Shown here: positions 4,992 through 20,584 of the stretch, piece after piece
Layout: each line of letters starts with the position of its first letter
Position numbering within the stretch: position 1 is the stretch's first letter
IMG/VR virus record: IMGVR_UViG_3300045421_000617
Span: 1-24,336 of that record
DNA length: 24,336 nt
From: a virus
Direction: 5' to 3' (one strand)
The notes under the pieces: generated by a model
What the model saw: only the letters and a program-made list of their open reading frames with translations
Database searches by the model: none
Told to the model about the DNA's origin: nothing
Program-made: the position numbers and the translations under genes

Positions 4992-6082
4992 CCGTTTAAA
5001 ACCTCATCTTTTGAAATCCCTAAAATCTTGCATTTTAATTCCTCCATTGAAGAAAGCCTGTCTATCTCTTTTTCAACAATTTTCTTTCGCATTTCTGCCA
5101 TCTTTAATAGCTTAGCCCTGCTTTCTTCTTCTTTCCACATTTGGACAAGATTAATTATTGAGGCTGTATCTTTTGTTTGTTTTGAAAGTCTTTCGCTTCT
5201 TTTTATTTTTAAATCATTATTTAACTTCTGTTGCCTATTAACGCAATCATTATATTCTTTTCTAGCGGTGTTACTGGCTTCTACTAAAGCCATAGGAATT
5301 TTGCCGTCATCAGAAATTGCTATGTCTATTTGATTTTGTAAAACATTTATCGTTTCTTGAATTTTTGAAGAAATTAAGACTTCGGTACAAAGAACGATGT
5401 ATTGATCAACTTCTTCTTGAGTCAAATCAGCTTTATTGTAGGTGTATCTAATAAAACTACTTTCAAATAGCTCTCTATCAGCTTCATTATCGTAAAGATT
5501 AATTTGATGTATAAATCTATGAGTATTCATATATCCTATACAGGCGTTTATTTCTCTCTTTTGACCATGAGTTATCTTAGTTTTATCTATTCCGTCTAAA
5601 ACGTATTTGTTGATTTTCGCTATCATTCTTTCTTCGCTACGCGGAGGTTTATAATCTTCTGTTGACGCATTTTCATTTTCAATATTATTATATTTTATAT
5701 TTGTGGGTAAACTTTTCATGTATTCCAAAACACTTCTGGTCTCTTGAGACAAATTTGTTAAAGCATCATTTTTGAACAATACTTTCGCCATCTCTATACC
5801 CGTCATAGTTGCACAGTTATTGCTTATGTACTCTTTCTGTTCGTCGTTTAAGCTTATTAAACCTTTAGCTTCGTATTCATGGCTCTTTTTCGGCTTGATC
5901 TGCCTAGAGGCTAAAAATTGTTTAACCGCCTTACCTTCCTTACTTCTTCCATCTAAATCTTCTCTAGAAAAAGCTAATTTAACCAATTCGGATAACGAAG
6001 GGGGATTAGATGGCCTATTATTCCATTCGCTTAATAGCTTAAGCTGCTGTTCTTCTGTTAAAATTGGAAGATCTTCGTTCAT
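4988..6082 (-). CDS. Tandem helix-turn-helix-like protein, candidate small terminase
   Basis: A 364-residue protein that I do not recognise as a named family. Its N-terminal third contains an internal duplication. Residues 8-63 (LTEEQ..., SELVKLAF..., S-x-E-x-x-x-V-x-x-x-L/M) align with residues 78-128 (LNDEQ..., IEMAKVLF..., S-x-E-T-R-S-V-x-x-x-M). Each unit looks like a small helical DNA-binding domain. The C-terminal 130 residues are strongly helical and charged (ETINVLQNQIDIAISD, then WKEEESRAKLLKMAEMRKKIVEKEI), suggesting a coiled coil for oligomerisation. DNA-binding repeats, a helical oligomerisation region and a position two genes before terL fit a small terminase or packaging-recognition protein. 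That is inference; a general DNA-binding regulator is the alternative. Both ends overlap their neighbours by ATGA. Confidence 0.5.
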   Translation of the reverse strand: MNEDLPILTEEQQLKLLSEWNNRPSNPPSLSELVKLAFSREDLDGRSKEGKAVKQFLASRQIKPKKSHEYEAKGLISLNDEQKEYISNNCATMTGIEMAKVLFKNDALTNLSQETRSVLEYMKSLPTNIKYNNIENENASTEDYKPPRSEERMIAKINKYVLDGIDKTKITHGQKREINACIGYMNTHRFIHQINLYDNEADRELFESSFIRYTYNKADLTQEEVDQYIVLCTEVLISSKIQETINVLQNQIDIAISDDGKIPMALVEASNTARKEYNDCVNRQQKLNNDLKIKRSERLSKQTKDTASIINLVQMWKEEESRAKLLKMAEMRKKIVEKEIDRLSSMEELKCKILGISKDEVLNG

Positions 6083-6798
6083 GATATATCTATGTCTCCG
6101 TTATACAAATACTTTTTGACTTTTATTAAAATAGATTTTTTTAAATTTCTAATTTGTTTATATCCAGCTGTTCTATTTTTTTCAGAAGTTCTGTAACCCA
6201 TTAGCTTGGCTGTATGTTCTTCTGTTTTTCCTTGAATATAAAGATATTGATAGATTTTCCATTCTACGGGTTTTAAAACTTGTTGCATTTTTATATGAAT
6301 CTTTTCTGCAGTTTTTTCTAAATTTAAATTTTCTTCTTTTAAATCGTTTATTTCTGTAGAATGATTTTCTATACTAAGAGTAAGCTTTGTGTCATGTGCA
6401 TTTTTTTTGGTTTTTTCCCATCTGGCGTATAAAGGACAAGAATTGCATTGCTCCCCATATATTGCACATCCAGACTCTCCTTGACAAGCTAAACATTTTA
6501 GGCATGGTCTTGAAAAGTGCCCGTAATGATTTCTAATTAAATTTTTAATTTGATTATTTACTATAGTATTGACCCAGGGCGCCAAAGGTTTTTTTGGTTG
6601 ATATAAATGCCATTTTTTATATATATGAAATCTTATTATTTGAGCAACATCTTGAAAATCCATCCAATTAATAGCGTTTAAATTCCATTTATTTTTCTTT
6701 TTGAAGATTTCTTGATTTATTTCATCAATACATTCTTCAAAAGTTCTTTTTCGAGAATTATTCTGTTTTTTTTCTTTTAACTTTAGCTTTTTTCGCAT
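6079..6798 (-). CDS. Phage sigma-like factor with Cys-cluster insertion
   Basis: A 239-residue protein with the outline of a small sigma-70/ECF factor. Residues 45-95 (MDFQDVAQII, then KKPLAPWVNTIVNNQIKNLIRN) resemble sigma region 2, where a D..Q/D motif precedes the W/N-rich helix that contacts the -10 element and core polymerase. Residues 175-232 (KPVEWKIYQYLYIQGKTEEH, LMGYRTSEKNRTAGYKQIRN) resemble region 4, a helix-turn-helix. Between them is a cluster of six cysteines, C99-x2-C102-x2-C105-x5-C111-x6-C118-x2-C121, which probably binds one or more metal ions. The start lies 41 nt inside the upstream zinc-ribbon gene and the stop overlaps the next start by ATGA. It is the natural candidate to recognise the AGTGTAA sites. 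The sigma assignment is fairly good; the promoter link is inference. Confidence 0.68.
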   Translation of the reverse strand: MRKKLKLKEKKQNNSRKRTFEECIDEINQEIFKKKNKWNLNAINWMDFQDVAQIIRFHIYKKWHLYQPKKPLAPWVNTIVNNQIKNLIRNHYGHFSRPCLKCLACQGESGCAIYGEQCNSCPLYARWEKTKKNAHDTKLTLSIENHSTEINDLKEENLNLEKTAEKIHIKMQQVLKPVEWKIYQYLYIQGKTEEHTAKLMGYRTSEKNRTAGYKQIRNLKKSILIKVKKYLYNGDIDIS

Positions 6799-7361: not shown

Positions 7362-10300
7362 TTATAAGCTTCTATTTCCGCCTAAGCACCCCAAATACAT
7401 TGCGTTATTGTTTAAGCTTTTTTTATTAAAAGAATAATTGTTAGCAGAAACATCAATAAATTTTCCATAATTTACGCCGTTAAATGAATGATTTCCAGCT
7501 GAACAATGCTCAAAAGTTCCAGAAACTATTCCAGTAATATTAAAATTAAAATTAGGCTCTTGTAAAAATAATTTTGAGCTATCATTTTCAGCCCAAAATC
7601 CACCAAAACTACCATCTAAAGCAGAGCATTTAAAGAATTTTCCTATGCAATTTGCGGGATAAGCTCTCTGCCTATATAAAGTTTTTATTGATTGTTTTAA
7701 AAAATCTACAGAATATTCGAATACGTAAGGATCTCTATTATTATTGGTCAGAAATAGTCCTCTTTGCGTTGAGTATCCAAATCTAAAATATCTGCTTAAG
7801 GTATTATGATAAAACGGATTTCTTCCTCCGTTTCCTTGCTCGTTTAAAAGAATATCAAAATTTAAGCCATATAATATATCTTTCTCGAAAAGAGATCCAC
7901 CATCAGGTTCAAATGCTACTACAGCAAATATTGTATACTCATTTCTTAATATTTGCCGAAAATCTTCTGGTCTTTCATTAATTAAATGTCTTATATTATC
8001 TAAAACAATCGGCCTTTTAAATCCTATGTTTAATTTTAGTTGCGTTGCTGTAGGTAAAGACAGCAGATAAGGCAAATTAGCAACAGAAGAAAAGCTTTCG
8101 CCCCCAGCAAAAGATTTAGGATTTTTTATAAAATTTCTTTCGTGATTGCTTAGGTCGCTTATTTTGGCTATGTAATCAACTCCATTGACCGTTTGAATCT
8201 CATTGCTATCTAAAGAAGAATCAATTCTAAGGGCTAGATTATCTTCTAAAAGAATACCAAATTTAGAGTCAGCAAAACCTAAAGAATATTTATTATTTAA
8301 ATAACCTTCAACTCTTTCAATTTCATTGAAATTTAATTTCTTATCATAAATCAGAAGCTCAAATAAATAAGTTTTATTTCTATTAAGAAGATTGCCAAAA
8401 CTGGCGTGATGTATTGAACCAAGCATAAAGGTATCTATGTCTCCTAATGCATGATTTTCCGGAAAAGTTGAGGTATTATCATGCACGCCTAAAATAGAAG
8501 AAGATAGTTGTCTTTTAACAGCGTATTCTTCTTCGTTTAAATAGAAAGTGCTTAAACCGCTTCCACTCTTTGTTGTTGCGCCCCACAGATAAAGTTTATT
8601 TTGAATAAAAGGTCTGCCGACGCCTTCTCCCCCGAAAGAGTTTTGCTTGGCCTCGCAAAAAGAATAATTTCCATTTTCTATCATATCTCCAAAGCTATGC
8701 ACACCTGCTGTACATTTTTCAAAAGTTGAATCTATTGATTTTGCTCCGTAACCAAAACTATAATCTTTTGCAGAGCAATTTTCAAATTTAGATTTACTTA
8801 TTAAACCATTTCTTCTACTTAGATCTGTACCAAAAGAATAGTCCCAAGCTTTGGAATTTAAAAATACAGAATTAACTATTTCACCAGCAAAGCTGTGTAG
8901 CGTTGCTTCACAATTTTCAAAATAAGAGTTCCTAATTGCTCCGTTTGCCCCGAAAGAATAAGATCCTCCTCTACAATTGATAAATCTTGCGGCTATAATT
9001 TTATTTTCGGAAGTAGAATTTAAATTAGATAAACCACCCATATCGCCCCCAAAAGATATTGCCCCTCCGGTACAATTAATAAATTCAGAATAATAATCAT
9101 TTGCTTCGCTAAAGGAAATATCTAAATTTATACCACCAAAAACATTATTGTCTCCTCCGCCAAAACCCGACCTTCCAGCAGAACAATTTTCAAAAGAGCA
9201 ATCAGTATAATTATAATTTGTTCGCATACTATTTATGCCATAGGTTATTAACGGCTTAGATTCTTGAAAACTACAATTAAAAGATTTAATTCTAGGATTA
9301 ATTGGATCCAAACGCGCTTTTCTATTCCAAAGAAATTGAGAGTCTGTAGTAGATGTAAAAATATCTGGAAAGTAAGCAGACGCATGACCTAATGGCTGCT
9401 TACGGTAGCTTGGATAATTATAATTTATAACTGTTCCACTACTAACAGTAGTCGCCGACCTTGGCCAATATCTACTACCACTAGTGGTAGTAGAAGGATT
9501 AAATGGAAACGATGTTAATCTCGCGGTTACTTCTATAGTAATTGGAAGGGTAGAAGCACTAGGCGCACCGGCTCCTGGAGAGGCATCAAATCTTACATAA
9601 AAACTAATTGTTCTTTTTATCTCTCGAAGAGAACTGTTAGCTATTTCTTCTGGAGTAAGATTAAAAATTTCCGAATAAGGAATTTGAAAAAAGAAATATT
9701 TATTCGCTGAAGATCCTCCTTCTGAACTGTTTTGATTTGCCATAGGATTCCACCATTCCCAAGATTCTGCAAGAGATTTTCCGTTAGCCTCGAAACTAGT
9801 CGAGGGAGTATTTGTTACAGTAAAATGAGCTGCTAGCTTTGTGCTAGTATTAGTAGAATCAAAACTAGTAGTATTTAAAAGAATGTACTCTCCTGTGTCC
9901 CCCAAAGAATGCGCTAATCTATAGGAACCCGCCGCGTCAGTATGAGTTCTAAAAGGAATAAAAAATCTCAAAATTCCTCCAATAGTGTCTGTTGTAGAAG
10001 AATTGTAATCAATTTTTCTGATAGCAAAATGTCTTATTTTAGAATAACCAGGCTGTCCAACGACACCTTGAGGAAGGCCTTCAAGCAATAAGTTAGATAC
10101 TTCTGGATTTGTAGTAAACTGAAAAGGACCCAAAAGCACTCTGCTGTTAACGGAGAGCGAATTAATCTCTCCTAATATTTTATAAAAATCATACGTATTA
10201 GAGTGTACAAATGTCCCTCCATATCTATCTATGTCTATATTGGGGCTTAACTCGCTTTTAATTCTAAGATTAGCTAAATAAATATTTGGGGCTTTTTGAA

Positions 10301-10673
10301 TTATTGCCCCCTGATTAACGCAGCTTCTTAGAAGCTCTGAATTATTTTTAATTACAGAAAAATTAGAGCCAACAGTATTTACTATTGAGCTTCTAGCAGA
10401 CACAGAAATTCCTAATATATCTATACCAGCTGTATCCAGTATTAAACTTTCCATTCCTAAGTCATATATTCCAGGCTCGAGAATAATAGCGTATCTTTTA
10501 CCGCTTAATATTCCTCCTAATTTTTTATAATTTTTTTTAGCTAAAGCATACGCTTTAAGAAGAGATCGACCATCGTTACTGAAAACCCCCGTAGACCTAA
10601 CAATCGTCTGGTAATCTGACTGATAATCTTGAGGGCCTACAGATAAAGGCGTTATTTGAGTTGCGTCTGACAT
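7362..10673 (-). CDS. Tail-spike/appendage protein: Cys-rich beta-helix with inserted lectin-like region
   Basis: A 1103-residue protein. The N-terminus (NDGRSLLKAYALAKKNYKK then IILEPGIYDL, residues 33-72) matches the start of pectate-lyase-like beta-helix spikes. Residues about 490-690 hold eight rungs of the form F-x-N-C-x-A/G-x-x-x-S-F-G, for example FENCSAKDYSFG and FEKCTAGVHSFG. Four more follow at about 1013-1103 (FFKCSALDGSFG, FEHCSAGNHSFN, FIDVSANNYSFN, YLGCLGGNRSL). Between the rung blocks, 690-1000 looks like ConA/LamG-type lectin sequence: a C-terminal-half signature (ELLIYDKKL, then EIERVEGYLNNKYSL near 770-797) precedes N-terminal-half-like sequence (LALRIDSS, ISDLSNHERNF, then YTIFAVVAFE). 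Residues 140-480 are another beta-rich, Ser/Thr-rich region. Probably a receptor-binding or glycan-degrading spike; no catalytic residues can be assigned. An AGTGTAA motif lies 11 nt before the ATG. Confidence 0.75.
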   Translation of the reverse strand: MSDATQITPLSVGPQDYQSDYQTIVRSTGVFSNDGRSLLKAYALAKKNYKKLGGILSGKRYAIILEPGIYDLGMESLILDTAGIDILGISVSARSSIVNTVGSNFSVIKNNSELLRSCVNQGAIIQKAPNIYLANLRIKSELSPNIDIDRYGGTFVHSNTYDFYKILGEINSLSVNSRVLLGPFQFTTNPEVSNLLLEGLPQGVVGQPGYSKIRHFAIRKIDYNSSTTDTIGGILRFFIPFRTHTDAAGSYRLAHSLGDTGEYILLNTTSFDSTNTSTKLAAHFTVTNTPSTSFEANGKSLAESWEWWNPMANQNSSEGGSSANKYFFFQIPYSEIFNLTPEEIANSSLREIKRTISFYVRFDASPGAGAPSASTLPITIEVTARLTSFPFNPSTTTSGSRYWPRSATTVSSGTVINYNYPSYRKQPLGHASAYFPDIFTSTTDSQFLWNRKARLDPINPRIKSFNCSFQESKPLITYGINSMRTNYNYTDCSFENCSAGRSGFGGGDNNVFGGINLDISFSEANDYYSEFINCTGGAISFGGDMGGLSNLNSTSENKIIAARFINCRGGSYSFGANGAIRNSYFENCEATLHSFAGEIVNSVFLNSKAWDYSFGTDLSRRNGLISKSKFENCSAKDYSFGYGAKSIDSTFEKCTAGVHSFGDMIENGNYSFCEAKQNSFGGEGVGRPFIQNKLYLWGATTKSGSGLSTFYLNEEEYAVKRQLSSSILGVHDNTSTFPENHALGDIDTFMLGSIHHASFGNLLNRNKTYLFELLIYDKKLNFNEIERVEGYLNNKYSLGFADSKFGILLEDNLALRIDSSLDSNEIQTVNGVDYIAKISDLSNHERNFIKNPKSFAGGESFSSVANLPYLLSLPTATQLKLNIGFKRPIVLDNIRHLINERPEDFRQILRNEYTIFAVVAFEPDGGSLFEKDILYGLNFDILLNEQGNGGRNPFYHNTLSRYFRFGYSTQRGLFLTNNNRDPYVFEYSVDFLKQSIKTLYRQRAYPANCIGKFFKCSALDGSFGGFWAENDSSKLFLQEPNFNFNITGIVSGTFEHCSAGNHSFNGVNYGKFIDVSANNYSFNKKSLNNNAMYLGCLGGNRSL

Positions 10674-13845: not shown

Positions 13846-14571
13846 TTACTTATTTATTTCTTCAAATTTTTCAATGATATAAGCAAGAATATCGTTTCTC
13901 ATTATATCGTCTGTTCCAAATTTAAAAGTTATAATTCCTTTACTTTTGCTCTGATTATCATCGAATAATTCATAAGTTTTTTCAAATCCGCTATTTTTAA
14001 TATCAGACTGACGAATGTCTCCAATTAAAATTAATTTACTAAATTTGCCCATTCGAGTGGTAATTAATAAAAGATCATGAATACTTAAGTTTTGCGATTC
14101 ATCACATATAATATAGCTAGCATTAATGCTTAATCCTCTTAAGAAACCAACGGGTAGACCTTTAACTCTTTCCTCTTTTAGAAGACGCTCTACTTGTTGC
14201 TTGGGAAGTAATTCGTGTAGCTTGTCCATCAATGGTTGCAGATATGGATCAAGCTTGCTATGAAGATCTCCTTTAAGGAATCCAAGATTATGACTTGAAC
14301 TTTCTACAGGATTTCTTATATAAAAAATTTCACCGACTTTTTTATCATTTAAAGCTTTAAGCGCGCAATATACAGACAAAAGGCTTTTTGCGGTTCCAGC
14401 CGGACCTTTGCACAAAATTATTTTTGTATTTTTATCCTGTAAAGTTTCAATAAATTTTTTCTGATTCGTTGTCCATTGCAATTCGCGAATATTTAACATT
14501 CCTTCAATTTTATCTCTTTGAGGTACGATTGGAGATCTATCTTCTTGTTTGCGTTTATTTTTTTTCGACAT
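13846..14571 (-). CDS. phoH: PhoH-like ATPase
   Basis: A 241-residue PhoH-family P-loop NTPase. The Walker A motif is GPAGTAKS at 56-63, preceded by IILCK. Walker B is YIICDESQN at 153-161 (Asp157, Glu158). The sensor-like IGDIRQSD at 183-190 is typical of the family. The order and spacing match PhoH proteins, which are very common in phages; their role is uncertain (RNA or nucleotide metabolism have been proposed). The N-terminal 20 residues are basic and probably unstructured. It starts at ATG 14571 with GTGTAA 15 nt upstream, and is transcribed away from the transferase-like gene at 14631. Confidence 0.9.
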   Translation of the reverse strand: MSKKNKRKQEDRSPIVPQRDKIEGMLNIRELQWTTNQKKFIETLQDKNTKIILCKGPAGTAKSLLSVYCALKALNDKKVGEIFYIRNPVESSSHNLGFLKGDLHSKLDPYLQPLMDKLHELLPKQQVERLLKEERVKGLPVGFLRGLSINASYIICDESQNLSIHDLLLITTRMGKFSKLILIGDIRQSDIKNSGFEKTYELFDDNQSKSKGIITFKFGTDDIMRNDILAYIIEKFEEINK

Positions 14572-14586
14572 GCAGACTACTTATTT

Positions 14587-14593
14587 TTTACAC
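14587..14593 (-). promoter_or_regulatory. GTGTAAA motif upstream of phoH
   Basis: The minus strand reads GTGTAAA within CACGTGTAAAAAATA, 15 nt before the phoH ATG. It is paired with a plus-strand copy about 14 nt away in the 59-nt divergent region. Confidence 0.5.
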
Positions 14594-14604
14594 GTGTTTA
14601 ATAA

Positions 14605-14614
14605 AAAGTGTAAA
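14605..14614 (+). promoter_or_regulatory. AGTGTAA motif upstream of the gene at 14631
   Basis: The plus strand reads AAAGTGTAAA, 17 nt before ATG 14631, followed by ATATTTTGTAATTTAA with no Shine-Dalgarno site. Confidence 0.5.
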
Positions 14615-14630
14615 ATATTTTGTAATTTAA

Positions 14631-15326
14631 ATGCTGATAACTTTTGATCATATAAATGGATTTGGTAAAATGACGCATCAAGATTTTGTATACTCTAATC
14701 CAGAAGGAGTTTTAGAAAAAAATGAAAAACCAGATGAAGCCTTAGAAAAAGGATGGATACCATGGAAAAATAAATGGTACAACCATCGATCAGTTAGGAT
14801 AAATTTAAAAGAATACTATCCAACAAAAACTACAAAAAAAGACTTTAAAAAAATAACTACAACATTTGATTCAATTTGTAATTTTACAAAATATAAAAAA
14901 GCAGAAGAAATATACGAAATATACTGCAAAAAAAATAATTTTAATCGCAACATACCTATTATAGAGATAATAAAAGATTCAAGTTGTTTTTTTGAGTTTA
15001 AATACGGCAAAGAGACAAAAGCTTATACTTTTTCTACTTTATATGAAAAATCTTTAATCAGTTCAGAATTTATACAAGACTTTAGTTGTCCAAAGATATC
15101 TTTAGGATCAATATCTCAACATTACGAATGTATCACCGCAAAAGAGTTAAATAAAGAATACGTCTACCTTTTAGGAGGATACGAATCGACTTGTATTTAT
15201 AAGTGTAATTTTCATGGTATGGAATGGTGGACAGGAAAAAACTGGTCTAAAGACTTAGATTTGTATAAAAAACTTTGTGAAAAAGATGATAGAATAAAAA
15301 TAGAAAATTATGATAACAATTTTTGA
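14631..15326 (+). CDS. Ate1/Bpt-like aminoacyl-tRNA-protein transferase (GNAT fold), putative
   Basis: A 231-residue protein that looks like a divergent arginyl/leucyl-tRNA-protein transferase. Residues 49-75 (WYNHRSVRINLKEYYPTKT then TKKDFKKI) mimic the family's 'C.PvRi.v..f.ptkSqRR..kk' segment, and an EEIYEIYCKK helix (92-101) follows. The C-terminal half has KISLGSISQ (155-163), then YVYLLGGYESTCIYK (177-191) and FHGMEWWTG (194-202), paralleling the Ate1 'SLG...YyYLGyyi...kM.YK..f.P.E' block. The usual N-terminal CxxC cluster of Ate1 is absent. Known family members add an amino acid from tRNA to a protein N-terminus, marking it for degradation; a peptide- or lipid-directed aminoacyl transferase is an alternative. 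First gene of a three-gene plus-strand operon. The assignment is from remembered patterns and needs a profile search. Confidence 0.55.
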   Translation: MLITFDHINGFGKMTHQDFVYSNPEGVLEKNEKPDEALEKGWIPWKNKWYNHRSVRINLKEYYPTKTTKKDFKKITTTFDSICNFTKYKKAEEIYEIYCKKNNFNRNIPIIEIIKDSSCFFEFKYGKETKAYTFSTLYEKSLISSEFIQDFSCPKISLGSISQHYECITAKELNKEYVYLLGGYESTCIYKCNFHGMEWWTGKNWSKDLDLYKKLCEKDDRIKIENYDNNF

Positions 15327-15525
15327 ACCATCTAATCAACTTGAAGTAGATACTCCAAAAGGAAGAGCTTCTATTTGGTTGGTCACGGAATATGGAACGG
15401 AGACCGAAAAAATTTTTACTTGTATTATAAAAGATACTGGTGAAATTTGGGAATACCGACCTAAAGATATAAAAGTAATAAATAATATTACATTCGGTAG
15501 AACAGCAAAAAAGGAAAATAAATGA
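15310..15525 (+). CDS. Small conserved phage-type protein of unknown function
   Basis: A 71-residue protein, MITIFEPSNQLEVDTPKGRA. It overlaps the 3' end of the transferase-like gene by 17 nt. The pattern VDTPKGRA..., WLVTEYGTE, a 'DTGEIWEYRPKDIKV' strand pair and a final NNITFGR resembles a small beta-barrel family seen in many phages ('..tP.G.G......YG.E....w.v....tgeiw......v....N.t.GR'). The function is not known to me. Its stop overlaps the next start by ATGA, so the pair is translationally coupled. Confidence 0.65.
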   Translation: MITIFEPSNQLEVDTPKGRASIWLVTEYGTETEKIFTCIIKDTGEIWEYRPKDIKVINNITFGRTAKKENK

Positions 15526-15803
15526 ATAAAACAATAAACATAAGAGAAAAAAATATTACGCAAGGCGAGAAAGCTAATCCTCAAAATTGCGCAATTGCCA
15601 GAGCAATAAAAGAAGAATACAAAAGTAAAATAAAAAACGTTTCTGTTTTACCTTCTCATATTGTTCTTGAGTTTAAAAAGCAGACTTATACTGCAGCTAT
15701 GCCTAAAAATGGCATAGATTTTATAAAAAGATTTGATAGGGGTTTAGCGGTAAATCCATTTGTGCTTAAACTAAGATTTAAAAAAGACTACGCCTTAGTC
15801 TGA
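15522..15803 (+). CDS. Small conserved phage-type protein of unknown function
   Basis: A 93-residue protein. It begins NKTINIREKNITQGEKANPQ, then CAIARAIKEEYK, ending in FIKRFDRGLAVNPFVLKLRF. The layout 'I.v...hi..G....... C.iA.Ai ... i........y...mP......FI..FD.g..v.PF.f.L.f' is one I have seen in small proteins of phages and bacteria of unknown role. A weak SD (AAGGAAAATAA) precedes the ATG. It is the last gene of the transferase-like operon; the 63 nt after it contain the leader of the large adhesin gene. Confidence 0.65.
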   Translation: MNKTINIREKNITQGEKANPQNCAIARAIKEEYKSKIKNVSVLPSHIVLEFKKQTYTAAMPKNGIDFIKRFDRGLAVNPFVLKLRFKKDYALV

Positions 15804-15866: not shown

Positions 15867-18800
15867 ATGGACAAAAAGCGTATAAATGATATTTTAGATT
15901 TTATTCAGAACATAAATTCTGTTAGTAGTAATCAAAGTGATTATGTGCCATATCCTACCGGTCCCCAATGGTGTTGTGATTGCGGTGATTGTTATAAAGC
16001 ATATCGAATCGGCACATGTTACGAACAAGTAGAATGTAGAGACGGCAAAATTTCTGGTTTTCTTTGCCCAAAAAAAGACAGAATAACTGGAAGATGTATT
16101 TTAGATCAACGAAACTGCTCGTCGTCCATATTCCAAAAACCTATTATGATAAATATGGAGATTAATATCCCCGAATGTAATCTAAAATATATACAAAGAG
16201 TTCCCTATATTAGCAACCTAGCATTAGCTGCGAGCGAAAAACTTACTTGCACACATGGCAAACCCAGTATTCAGAAAAGGCACAGAGGCAATTTAGGCAT
16301 AGATCAAACTAAAGGGTGTTGCGAAAAAAGACAATACCCTATGATTTATAGATCTTCTACAGGATTTTCTGGGGATCCTGTTGGCGGATATTTTACTGAC
16401 GATAGAAAAGCAGTTGACTTTCACACAGGCTGGACTTCTGTCCAATGGGCTATGTACCAAAGCGGCGGGTATTGGGATGTTGTGTTTTCAGATACAGAAA
16501 TTGTCAGGAATCAAAATGTATACGTTAAAGCTACTCTTATTAAAGACCCAAATTTTAAGTGCCCGTCTGATCCAGAGGAAAGAGCTTTATGGTGTCAATA
16601 TTCTCCTGGAGCATTGGATGAAACTGGGCTCTCAGTATGCTGCGAGCGTACGCCTGCTTGCAAAAGTGCACCATGCGCAGTTGGAGAATTTTGTCCACCA
16701 TATTGTTTTCGGTTAAAATCTTCTGTTGTAAATCCAGATGGCACGTTTATTTGTGATGTAGGCAAAATGCCACTAACGCCTACTCCAACGCCTACTCCAA
16801 CGCCTAAAGAAGAAAATTACTTAGAATGGGCACAAAAAGCTAAAATTTGTCCATCTAAAAAATTAGATAAAAATGCTAATTGTCTAATTCTTTCATCAAA
16901 CGAACACGCCGTACTAGACCAAATAATAAAAACTACTTATACTTACAAAGGGCAAAAAACTATCATAGATTTTATAACTTATAAGAAAGAAAATAAGTTA
17001 ATTTGTCCAAGTATATTAGAAAGTCGTCCTACTTGTAATTATGGTACAGCTTATGTTGCAGATTGGGGCCCAATGATCAACCCGACTTGTTGTCTTCCAA
17101 TTTGGAAATGCCCTCAAAATACTACCAGTGTTTCTGATAATCAAAGAGTGTCTTTCTGTTTTAATCAATTAAAAAATTTAATAAATTCTAACCCTTTTAT
17201 CTCTCCTGTTTTTACTCCTCCGCCAAACACCGGAGGTGCTGAAGGTGGAAACAAATCTCCAAAAGAGAAGAGTCTACTTAATTTGAAAACATATGGATAT
17301 TTTTATAAATTAGAAATAACTTCTAAAGTCTGGGAAAATAAATTTCAATCTGTGCATTCATTTATAGACCTAGAGCTCTCTGGATTAAAAGAAGAAGAAG
17401 TATATTACGACGAAAAAAATAAGTGCGCATACATTATGTATCCATCTCGCAAAAAAACTTATTATATAAAATCTGGAGTTTCTGTCCTACCAGGAGTCGG
17501 TGGAATTTGCGATAGTGAATGTATATCCGTAACCCTAGACCCTTGCGCAACTGGAAAAATATGTAGAAAAACAAATCCTCACCACATTCATGTGGGGGGC
17601 GGGGTGCGGGGAGAGATCTGGCCGGACGCTTTTGGCGGTGCGGCAGTACGAAAAGCTTACAAAAGATATCCTGAAAATTGGCCTGGACCACATAAGATAT
17701 CTATAGATAAAACTACAAAAAACTTATTTTTAGGTCGTGGATGCATTGAAATAGAGATTAGAAACTCTGAAATAACAAATCTTTGGTCTAAGGCAGAGTC
17801 TGTTGGTATAATTAATATAAAAGCTACAGTAGGCGGCTGTTATCGTACTACAGGTGATACAGGAAAATTAACTTTTAAAAATCTTGATCCTTCTACGGGA
17901 GCTTTTAATATAGAACTATCTGGCAGCTTAAATGGTCAAAAAGGTGGCGACCCAGGACAAGGCTGCCGAAAACAAAGCGACATATTTGGATTAGAAGGCC
18001 TCAACATATTAAGTTTAAAATTAAACAAAGTTCGATTAAACGGTATTATTCTCAAAAAAGCGCCTCGAGAACTTGGTTTACACGGAGTCGAAGGATCTTT
18101 AACAATTGCTCCAGACAAGCCTTCTTTAGTAAATCTGTTATATTTAAATTCTTACGAAAACGAAAGCCTTGATTGGCCTTGGAATCAAAAGCAAAATTAT
18201 ATTGATTGGCCTAGGATTGTAACTAGTAATCCTGATCACGGCTTCACATTAAATATAAATAATAATTGCTGTTTCCAATACAACTCAGAGCTAAATACAA
18301 ATACGTTTTGGGAGTCGCATCTTCATGCACCACAAGTCGGAAGTTACTATCTAAACAATGCAGAAACAAATAAAAACGTATTAAAAGGAATTAATAACAC
18401 TGTAAACTTAATGCCTGGTATAAGTGCAATTTTATCAAAAAGCCTTCATAATACGAACGCTCCACAAATTAGATTAAATTCTAATATTGAGAATTTTATA
18501 ATTTCAGGTATAGGCAAACCCGATAAAAGTAATGATCTCATAGATTTTATAAATAAAATAAACTTTGGAGATTTAAATTTATCCTATAGAGAATGGCCAA
18601 TGTTTATCATAGGGGAATTATTTATTATATTAAGAAATTCTTTTTCTGTAAATAAAAACTCAGAGATTTCTGCTATACTAACTAATTTAAAAAGAAAATT
18701 AAACGCTACAGTAATGCTTGGTTGGTATAATCTAACTAAGATAAATGAACATATTCCTACTCCTCCGCTTCTTCCGCCTCGTCCACCTCCTCCGCTTCTT

Positions 18801-19805
18801 CCGCCTCCTACCCCAACATCAACAAATATTATACAAACCGGTGTTCTTTGTCCAGATTATTCTTTTGGATCTTCAGGAAGAACTATAGGAGTTTTAGATC
18901 TCGACAATGATAGCTTATGGGCTCAAAAATACGGATTCGGGTCTAGCGCAGAATCTAGCCGACCTGATTATTATGATACAGTATACGTTTTTGAAGCTTC
19001 TTCTACAGGATTTATCACTACGCTAAGTTTTGCTCATAGATGGGAAGAAGAGATTTCTCAAAAATACGGATTAGCAACGCTTCAAATTTATTCTGGAAGC
19101 GGAATCAGTGGCCCATTGCTTTTTCAAAGTAGAATTATTATACAATCCGGAGATAATACACCTCTAGAAAATAAATATACAAATTATAACGTTAATGTCC
19201 CTTGCGTCGCAAAAAATAAATACTCTGTTAGATTAAATTACGAATCTGCTAAAAGTATTCCAGTTCCGTTGTCCATAATTGGATGGGCCCACCCCTTTCA
19301 TTCAAAATTCTTTGAGTACTACACATACACAAGAAATGTCCGCACTCTTCAAAAGATTGCATATACTCCTGATTTTAGAGTTTATATTTCAAAAAATTCT
19401 TCGCCAATTAAACTTTGCAAGGAACCTACTTTAATTTATAAAGGCGACTTTATTCAAGGTCAAATACCTATTGAGTTTGCTCCTATTAACGTTGGAAGAC
19501 CTGTAATATTGCCTCCAAAAAACCCCGTTATACCTCCACCAAAGAATCCCAATTGCCATCCTACCCAATATGATACCGTTGTCTACAATCATAGGGCCCC
19601 AGTTAATTATTTTCCTGAAGGGTGCTTAGATCCAAGTCTTCCAAGTATCATTGGTTGGATAAGAATTTGGGGCGACAAAAAAGAATATCCTATAGTAAAC
19701 CCTGAATTCAAAAATTACGCCGCAGTTTTGCAGAAGCATCGAAAAGTATATAAACCAACTACTTACCCTCAACATATAAGTCTTGAGGATCTTGTGAAAC
19801 CTTAG
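15867..19805 (+). CDS. Large Cys-rich modular adhesin/fibre protein with Pro/Thr linkers
   Basis: A 1312-residue protein, the largest in the window, alone in its transcription unit. The first 300 residues are unusually Cys-rich for a phage protein (CCDCGDC at 36-42, several CC pairs, CKSAPC, CPPYC), implying disulphides or metal binding. A (Thr-Pro) linker follows at about 303-313 (TPTPTPTPTP). A second, proline-rich linker lies near 965-985 (TPPLLPPRPPPPLLPPPTPT) and a third near 1211-1228 (ILPPKNPVIPPPKNP). The segment after the second linker (about 990-1145, with LWAQKYGFGSS and TLQIYSGSGISGP) looks like a beta-sandwich carbohydrate-binding-type module. No signal peptide, membrane anchor or catalytic motif is evident. 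Linker-separated globular modules suggest a host-binding surface protein; this is inference. A short GC-rich patch at about 17,590-17,650 encodes HVGGGVRGEIWPDAFGGAA. Confidence 0.6.
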   Translation: MDKKRINDILDFIQNINSVSSNQSDYVPYPTGPQWCCDCGDCYKAYRIGTCYEQVECRDGKISGFLCPKKDRITGRCILDQRNCSSSIFQKPIMINMEINIPECNLKYIQRVPYISNLALAASEKLTCTHGKPSIQKRHRGNLGIDQTKGCCEKRQYPMIYRSSTGFSGDPVGGYFTDDRKAVDFHTGWTSVQWAMYQSGGYWDVVFSDTEIVRNQNVYVKATLIKDPNFKCPSDPEERALWCQYSPGALDETGLSVCCERTPACKSAPCAVGEFCPPYCFRLKSSVVNPDGTFICDVGKMPLTPTPTPTPTPKEENYLEWAQKAKICPSKKLDKNANCLILSSNEHAVLDQIIKTTYTYKGQKTIIDFITYKKENKLICPSILESRPTCNYGTAYVADWGPMINPTCCLPIWKCPQNTTSVSDNQRVSFCFNQLKNLINSNPFISPVFTPPPNTGGAEGGNKSPKEKSLLNLKTYGYFYKLEITSKVWENKFQSVHSFIDLELSGLKEEEVYYDEKNKCAYIMYPSRKKTYYIKSGVSVLPGVGGICDSECISVTLDPCATGKICRKTNPHHIHVGGGVRGEIWPDAFGGAAVRKAYKRYPENWPGPHKISIDKTTKNLFLGRGCIEIEIRNSEITNLWSKAESVGIINIKATVGGCYRTTGDTGKLTFKNLDPSTGAFNIELSGSLNGQKGGDPGQGCRKQSDIFGLEGLNILSLKLNKVRLNGIILKKAPRELGLHGVEGSLTIAPDKPSLVNLLYLNSYENESLDWPWNQKQNYIDWPRIVTSNPDHGFTLNINNNCCFQYNSELNTNTFWESHLHAPQVGSYYLNNAETNKNVLKGINNTVNLMPGISAILSKSLHNTNAPQIRLNSNIENFIISGIGKPDKSNDLIDFINKINFGDLNLSYREWPMFIIGELFIILRNSFSVNKNSEISAILTNLKRKLNATVMLGWYNLTKINEHIPTPPLLPPRPPPPLLPPPTPTSTNIIQTGVLCPDYSFGSSGRTIGVLDLDNDSLWAQKYGFGSSAESSRPDYYDTVYVFEASSTGFITTLSFAHRWEEEISQKYGLATLQIYSGSGISGPLLFQSRIIIQSGDNTPLENKYTNYNVNVPCVAKNKYSVRLNYESAKSIPVPLSIIGWAHPFHSKFFEYYTYTRNVRTLQKIAYTPDFRVYISKNSSPIKLCKEPTLIYKGDFIQGQIPIEFAPINVGRPVILPPKNPVIPPPKNPNCHPTQYDTVVYNHRAPVNYFPEGCLDPSLPSIIGWIRIWGDKKEYPIVNPEFKNYAAVLQKHRKVYKPTTYPQHISLEDLVKP

Positions 19806-20128: not shown

Positions 20129-20584
20129 TTAGATATAAATTGTCCAAATACTATTAAATTCTTCTTCTGTTAAATCAAGAACAGAGCCGTTTTGTGGTTC
20201 AAAAAATATTTGACGACAGATATTTCCATCGTTTATGTATACTACATTAATAGCATGGCCACCTTTAGAGCCGTCTTCTGCTCTTGAATTTGCCATATAA
20301 TTTATAACGCCCACGGCAATGCCCTCTGCGTCGCTATCAATTGAACTAAAATAATATCCGCTTGCAAACAATTTAAAAGCATCTGCAAAATTATCACAAT
20401 CCCACTTGTGACTCCATTTGCTCCATTTTAATGAATTTAACCACCAATTAAATTTAGGATATATATTATTTCTAAGTAAAAATATGTTTGGCGCAAAATA
20501 ATTTTTATCTGATATTACAATGTTTTTTGGGAGGGTTGATTTTCCAACCCAGGGTGTTATTATCTCGTTTTTTGTTATAATCAT
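20129..20584 (-). CDS. Papain/transglutaminase-like cysteine hydrolase, putative
   Basis: A 151-residue protein with a plausible Cys-His-acidic/amide triad. Cys63 lies in WDCDNFADAFKLFA (61-74), His110 in GGHAINVVYIND (108-119), and FFEPQNG (127-133) supplies the third polar residue. This 'DCDNFA ... GHA.N ... EPQ' arrangement occurs in small phage proteins related to transglutaminase-like or papain-like peptidases. Substrate unknown: peptidoglycan peptide cleavage, virion maturation or host-protein cleavage are all possible. No signal peptide. It starts at ATG 20584 nine bases after an AGTGTAA motif with no Shine-Dalgarno site. Confidence 0.6.
   Translation of the reverse strand: MIITKNEIITPWVGKSTLPKNIVISDKNYFAPNIFLLRNNIYPKFNWWLNSLKWSKWSHKWDCDNFADAFKLFASGYYFSSIDSDAEGIAVGVINYMANSRAEDGSKGGHAINVVYINDGNICRQIFFEPQNGSVLDLTEEEFNSIWTIYI

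Follow-up and report, generated by a model that had tools for sequence, protein, structure and literature searches.

A phage-borne family of predicted Ate1/Bpt-like aminoacyl-tRNA transferases without the cysteine cluster

A 231-residue protein (P1) encoded by an uncultivated tailed phage is best explained, by fold and ancestry, as an Ate1/Bpt-like transferase that would tag protein N-termini for Clp degradation; taken as a whole, this statement is given a probability of about 50%. That P1 is an aminoacyl-tRNA-dependent transferase is very probable, and that it uses protein N-termini as acceptors and thereby supplies Clp proteolysis stands at roughly even odds. The gene lies on a 24.3-kb phage genome fragment, the whole stretch of DNA that was analysed (here called the window), in which a terminase, phoH, an ERCC4-type nuclease and a sigma-like protein were recognised and in which neither tRNAs nor Rfam RNAs were found when looked for. 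The features that bear on P1 are the following:

13846..14571, minus strand: phoH (PF02562, 1.6e-50), the divergent core neighbour, which marks the insertion slot
14587..14614, no strand assigned: inverted repeat TTTACAC-N14-GTGTAAA in the divergent phoH/P1 intergenic region
14631..15326, plus strand: P1, Ate1/Bpt-like aminoacyl-tRNA transferase of 231 aa as judged from profiles and a structural model, predicted double-GNAT, without Cys/Zn site
14787..14861, plus strand: RSVRI...YYPTKTTKKDFKKI block, codons 53-77 of P1, aligning with the Bpt block 'vRI..F.PSR.QRR'
15099..15245, plus strand: ATE_C core SLGSISQHYECITAKELNKEYVYLLGGYESTCIYKCNFHGMEWWTGKNW, codons 157-205 of P1, with LG, A, Y, YK, E and W in common with Bpt
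15310..15525, plus strand: P2, predicted SH3/Tudor-like small beta-barrel protein of 71 aa, second gene of the cassette
15522..15803, plus strand: P3, phrog_19191 protein of 93 aa, a core gene of the window's phage clade outside the cassette

The layout described in the initial annotation is present: the 231-residue reading frame contains both motif blocks, RSVRINLKEYYPTKTTKK at residues 53-70 and YVYLLGGYESTCIYK at residues 177-191, two small coupled genes follow it with overlaps of 17 nt (P1/P2) and 4 nt (P2/P3), and the unit diverges from phoH, which lies 59 nt upstream on the opposite strand. The inverted repeat in this gap is kept, with slightly varied spacing, in five relatives that share this arrangement (L003, L004, L005, L007 and L008) and had no occurrence in 100 shuffles of the window; it probably functions as a bidirectional promoter or operator.

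Several other products of the window are of separate interest. The phage sigma-like factor (6079-6798, minus strand) has a Sigma-70 region 2 domain (PF04542, 2.1e-6) and a Cys-rich insert, and an 1103-aa protein with repeated 'F.NC.A...SFG' units (7362-10673, minus strand) appears beta-helix-like by eye and is probably a tail fibre or spike. A Cys-rich protein of 1312 aa with proline-rich stretches and without a Pfam match (15867-19805, plus strand) is possibly a structural or adhesion protein, and a 151-aa protein (20129-20584, minus strand) has weak matches to Agglutinin_C and ricin-type lectin C-terminal domains (1e-4, below cut-off).

Seven relatives of P1 with 72-76% amino acid identity were found in IMG/VR. 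Comparison with close relatives gave a dN of about 0.17 and a dS of about 1.0-1.3, which indicates purifying selection, and P1 is a real gene under such selection. A profile of the close relatives only (A1) led to a protein with 46% identity to P1 (L010), which as a query retrieved 56 loci with identities down to 29%, several of them on contigs of 100-200 kb. P1 belongs to a family of uncultivated phages with more than 60 loci in IMG/VR, from which 22 representative members were aligned into a deeper profile (A3). Searches of the 50,697 deposited phages in INPHARED with P1, L010 and the divergent member L062 gave no clear relatives, only two weak local fragments (E 0.05 and 0.5), and no PHROG matched the family with a consistent hit. 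Accordingly, standard annotation labels these proteins hypothetical. Bacterial relatives of P1 were not found when genome contigs were searched with A1. A shortened transferase relative of 145 aa, comprising only the C-terminal GNAT part, is encoded at L365:1441-1878; this contig, of 352 kb, carries a ClpS gene as well.

The sequence ties of P1 to Ate1/Bpt become visible at the level of the family. Single-sequence scans of P1 against Pfam, NCBIfam and PHROGs gave nothing useful, and its matches to Kelch_6 (0.16) and PPR (0.029) are noise. PF04377 (ATE_C) has one match in the window's record, which is P1 (4.1e-4), at 15.4 bits against a Pfam cut-off of 25, and the 46%-identical L010 exceeds this cut-off with 32.5 bits. 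ATE_C matches were obtained for six of eight close relatives and, at E<=1, for 18 of the 22 family members (best 1.9e-10). With A3 as the query, yeast ATE1 chains came first in the PDB (1.1e-6), and hhalign aligned A3 to eight Bpt proteins across residues 53-206 of P1 (97%, 1e-10). The shallow profile A1 reached a probability of only 1.6% against Bpt, and its PDB matches to unrelated chains were discarded as chance, close relatives making too shallow a profile. Since A1 fails against Bpt and P1 alone stays below the ATE_C cut-off, detection rests on the wider family.

The specificity of A3 was controlled in one Pseudomonas genome, in which the single match at E<=10 was the known Bpt position. 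Among 299 Pseudomonadota genomes, 67 had a match, one each; the top ones were inspected, and the best (L367) is a Bpt with both ATE domains, located beside aat and a clpA-like ORF, while L368 also looks like Bpt. The Bpt sequences were fetched with a Pseudomonas-like Bpt query, and only the returned database sequences serve as evidence. Conservation of 80% or more on both sides, phage family and Bpt, is seen in 12 alignment columns, corresponding to G41, Y50, R56, Y98, L158, G159, A170, Y179, Y190, K191, E198 and W205 of P1. The parallel to N-end-rule transferases that had been seen in the two motif blocks is thus not due to chance. The PSKTTKK segment, which is aligned to the PSR.QRR block of Bpt, contains four to eight basic residues (K/R) in all 22 members and forms a helix at residues 66-74 in the AlphaFold model of P1. 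By analogy with the ATE1-tRNA structure, this basic segment, which may correspond to helix alpha-f of ATE1, is proposed to contact the tRNA acceptor stem.

The N-terminal half of the family departs from Ate1/Bpt. ATE_N (PF04376) matched none of the 22 scanned members, the same scan finding the domain in the Bpt L367 at 7.9e-21. Both ATE domains had been named for a profile search in the initial annotation; ATE_C was recovered in the family, P1 itself remaining below the cut-off, and ATE_N was not. The proposed absence of the Cys cluster holds: Bpt has four invariant Cys columns, none of which has an equivalent in the N-terminal halves of the 22 phage proteins, and Cys stays below 40% in every column of the phage alignment ahead of residue 99. 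Since P1 lacks both ATE_N and the Cys cluster, it is called Ate1/Bpt-like; by its sequence, the family is placed as a metal-free sister lineage of Ate1/Bpt and not as a member. Whether the metal site of Ate1 holds zinc or an iron-sulphur cluster is debated, and an Ate1/Bpt-like enzyme that naturally lacks the Cys cluster would help settle the role of this site. Without it, the phage enzymes must hold the substrate cleft differently from Ate1, and substrate recognition by P1 must differ from that of cellular Ate1/Bpt.

The CX2CXnCC site of Ate1 has been reported as strictly conserved and zinc-binding, supporting stability, substrate access and tRNA binding (PMC10115844). Together with the loss of ATE_N and the metal site, this role in substrate and tRNA binding would fit a relative without catalytic activity whose role is to capture charged tRNAs or N-degron proteins, thereby dampening host translation or proteolysis. 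Such a function is improbable, as even very divergent phages keep the core residues in common with Bpt unchanged, and the low dN/dS is that expected of an active enzyme.

The AlphaFold model of P1, built from A3, has a pLDDT of 83.5 and a pTM of 0.82. In a Foldseek search of the PDB, human and yeast ATE1 were its best matches (9.4e-8 and weaker), followed by other aminoacyl-tRNA-dependent double-GNAT enzymes, and VIA-align superimposed it on human ATE1 with a Z of 15.1 over 215 of 231 residues (rmsd 4.4). The predicted structure therefore gives the confident double-GNAT match to Ate1/Aat-type enzymes that the initial annotation had called for, and its proposed Ate1/Bpt-like identity is supported by this ranking as well as by the yeast ATE1 profile match and the Bpt alignment. 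Single-GNAT acetyltransferases also align with the model (Z 11-12), and GNATs are often carried by phages, so that an ordinary acyl-CoA-dependent N-acetyltransferase merely resembling Ate1 has to be considered. This is very improbable: these acetyltransferases cover only about 120-155 residues, whereas the whole P1 chain including its N-terminal part aligns to ATE1, and the conserved basic segment and the Bpt core residues would be left unexplained.

MprF, aPGS, FemX and Sba18/Sbb17, all aminoacyl-tRNA-dependent, reached Z values of 12-16 with the P1 model, mostly over 140-190 residues. With MprF/FemX-type enzymes at 15-16, as high as ATE1, the fold alone cannot choose between them. An enzyme like FemAB or MprF, acting during infection on the host envelope by aminoacylating its peptidoglycan precursors or its lipids, would also agree with weak matches to PF13480 (Acetyltransf_6) in eight of the 22 members (best 0.0045) and with a phage FemAB protein that ranks second for the P1 model in a library of viral structures (BFVD). 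It is nevertheless a rather remote explanation, because ATE_C matches more members and does so more strongly, the HMMER matches of A3 in the PDB are to ATE1 with no FemX, MprF or aPGS chain among them, ATE1 comes first in Foldseek, and the P1 model, to judge from its secondary structure, seems to have no membrane part. Thus, the predicted fold is that of an aminoacyl-tRNA-dependent double GNAT, and it is the sequence that places P1 in the Ate1/Bpt branch.

The genomic context shows which of the neighbouring genes belong with P1. Of 64 loci, 54 have P2 overlapping the 3' end of the transferase gene (clustering assigned 52, and inspection added L002 and L006), a count that includes many near-identical contigs and does not represent independent events; the ten loci without an overlapping P2 are L037, L038 and the divergent L059-L066. 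The notion of P2 as a transferase-specific gene has to be softened, as 11 of the 80 loci with P2 lack a transferase, both in the vicinity and elsewhere on the contig. The P2 model folds as a small beta-barrel similar to SH3/Tudor domains, with E-values that are not significant. In five inspected relatives of the window's phage (L453-L457; phoH 84-88% identical), a gene for a protein of about 213 aa fills the slot beside P3, and the copy that was scanned belongs to phrog_3704. This PHROG is labelled 'ferredoxin', and no Pfam domain was found in the protein. The transferase was absent from all 24 contigs with a closely related phoH, some of which are fragments. Since the phrog_3704 gene replaces P1 and P2 in these relatives while P3 stays beside phoH, the transferase and P2 constitute a two-gene cassette that can be exchanged, and P3 belongs to the phage's core genes. 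Of the operon of three genes suggested in the initial annotation, the pairing of P1 with P2 stands; the inclusion of P3 is rejected.

ClpS is an adaptor that reads N-degrons. It was found above the Pfam cut-off in seven of 20 transferase-bearing contigs, belonging to only a few lineages, and ClpP in two of the 20, both of which also have ClpS. ClpS was found in none of 11 contigs with P2 and no transferase, in none of 20 transferase-negative phoH relatives, and not in the window's own clade, the contigs being fragments. ClpS is also frequent in viral contigs generally, and the transferase is present on only one of 24 ClpS contigs; given this and the lack of ClpS in the window's clade, an obligatory partnership of ClpS with the transferase was rejected. 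Among the phage ClpS proteins (L237-L241), a canonical type (L241) and a divergent type with an NDDVHSFAYVV-like motif (L237, L238) can be distinguished, the latter being Bacteroidota-like by eye. Overall, the Clp genes carried by some members would fit N-degron tagging, and the link from the P1 family to protein degradation is plausible and suggestive.

In the mechanism envisaged, P1 would bind a charged host tRNA via the acceptor stem and would transfer the amino acid to selected proteins at their N-terminal amino group, perhaps helped in substrate recognition by its SH3-like partner P2. The added residue would create a destabilising N-terminus, and the tagged proteins would be degraded by host ClpS/ClpAP or, in some relatives, by way of the phage's own ClpS, resulting in the removal of host or phage proteins during infection. 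A further, tentative extension, somewhat doubtful at present, is that some phages have an N-degron pathway of their own, in which the metal-free transferase writes the degron and ClpS, with ClpP in two contigs, reads and executes it, redirecting proteolysis. The window's phages would then carry only the writer, exchanged as a cassette, and would use host ClpS/ClpAP.

The neighbourhood differs in the large phages L059-L061 and L064-L066 and in L365, where genes for AdoMetDC-like, phrog_10325, DUF6614 and amidinotransferase-like proteins are found near the transferase. An AdoMetDC/SpeD homologue adjoins it or lies within about 2 kb in L059-L061 and L065, as supported by PF02675 matches in L060 (1.6e-12) and L065 (4.5e-15) and by clustering for the copies in L059 and L061. 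DUF6614-type and amidinotransferase-like genes adjoin it in L065 and L365, the latter assignment having been made by eye without a Pfam match. These neighbours would suit an aminoacyl-tRNA-dependent transferase whose acceptor is not a protein but a small molecule, i.e. a polyamine or an agmatine-like or guanidino compound. Ornithine/arginine decarboxylases are known among phage SpeD homologues (PMC10407285, PMC9992855), and Sba18/Sbb17, which rank high structurally, are peptide synthases acting on streptothrisamine. A small-molecule acceptor is nonetheless unlikely for P1, since the cassette has none of these genes as neighbours in the window's clade, the amidinotransferase reading is one made by eye, and the sequence profiles reach ATE1 and Bpt but not Sba18 or FemX. 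The cluster of transferase, phrog_10325 protein (with a CPFA motif), DUF6614 and amidinotransferase-like protein in L064-L066 (L065:3688-9494, with AdoMetDC) and L365 (939-3265) is possibly a biosynthetic pathway.

If the activity of P1 is N-terminal tagging for Clp degradation, it would represent a new viral way of choosing proteins for destruction in the infected cell, and the family suggests that phages may steer the protein-disposal system of their host. A phage enzyme of this kind appears to be new: no report of one, and no phage enzyme writing N-degrons, was found in the open literature, to which the search was confined.

Among known systems, Bpt, the bacterial aspartate/glutamate leucyltransferase (PF04376 plus PF04377), is similar to P1 in length (about 230-240 aa) and has a homologous GNAT core with the 12 shared conserved positions. 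In contrast to Bpt, P1 has neither an ATE_N match nor the C..C..C cluster, has a GFEFWTG..W tail instead of the Bpt C-terminus, and is phage-borne beside an SH3-like gene. Leucyl/phenylalanyl-tRNA-protein transferase (Aat, LFTR) performs the same kind of reaction and has a role in N-degron formation. Its fold is GNAT-related (PMC10115844), and it was not among the matches listed in the sequence and fold searches with the P1 family. The eukaryotic arginyl-tRNA-protein transferase Ate1 is the best Foldseek match, the human enzyme aligning over the whole chain, and a PDB profile match at 1e-6; with about 500 aa it is much larger than P1, which lacks both its variable domain and its CX2CXnCC zinc site (PMC10115844 for the latter). 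Phage ClpS, already known from jumbo phages such as Agrobacterium phage Atu_ph07 (PMC6102473; review PMC7824862), is an established phage route into the host Clp machinery, and some transferase-bearing phages encode it as well. ClpS recognises N-degrons, whereas P1 would create them.
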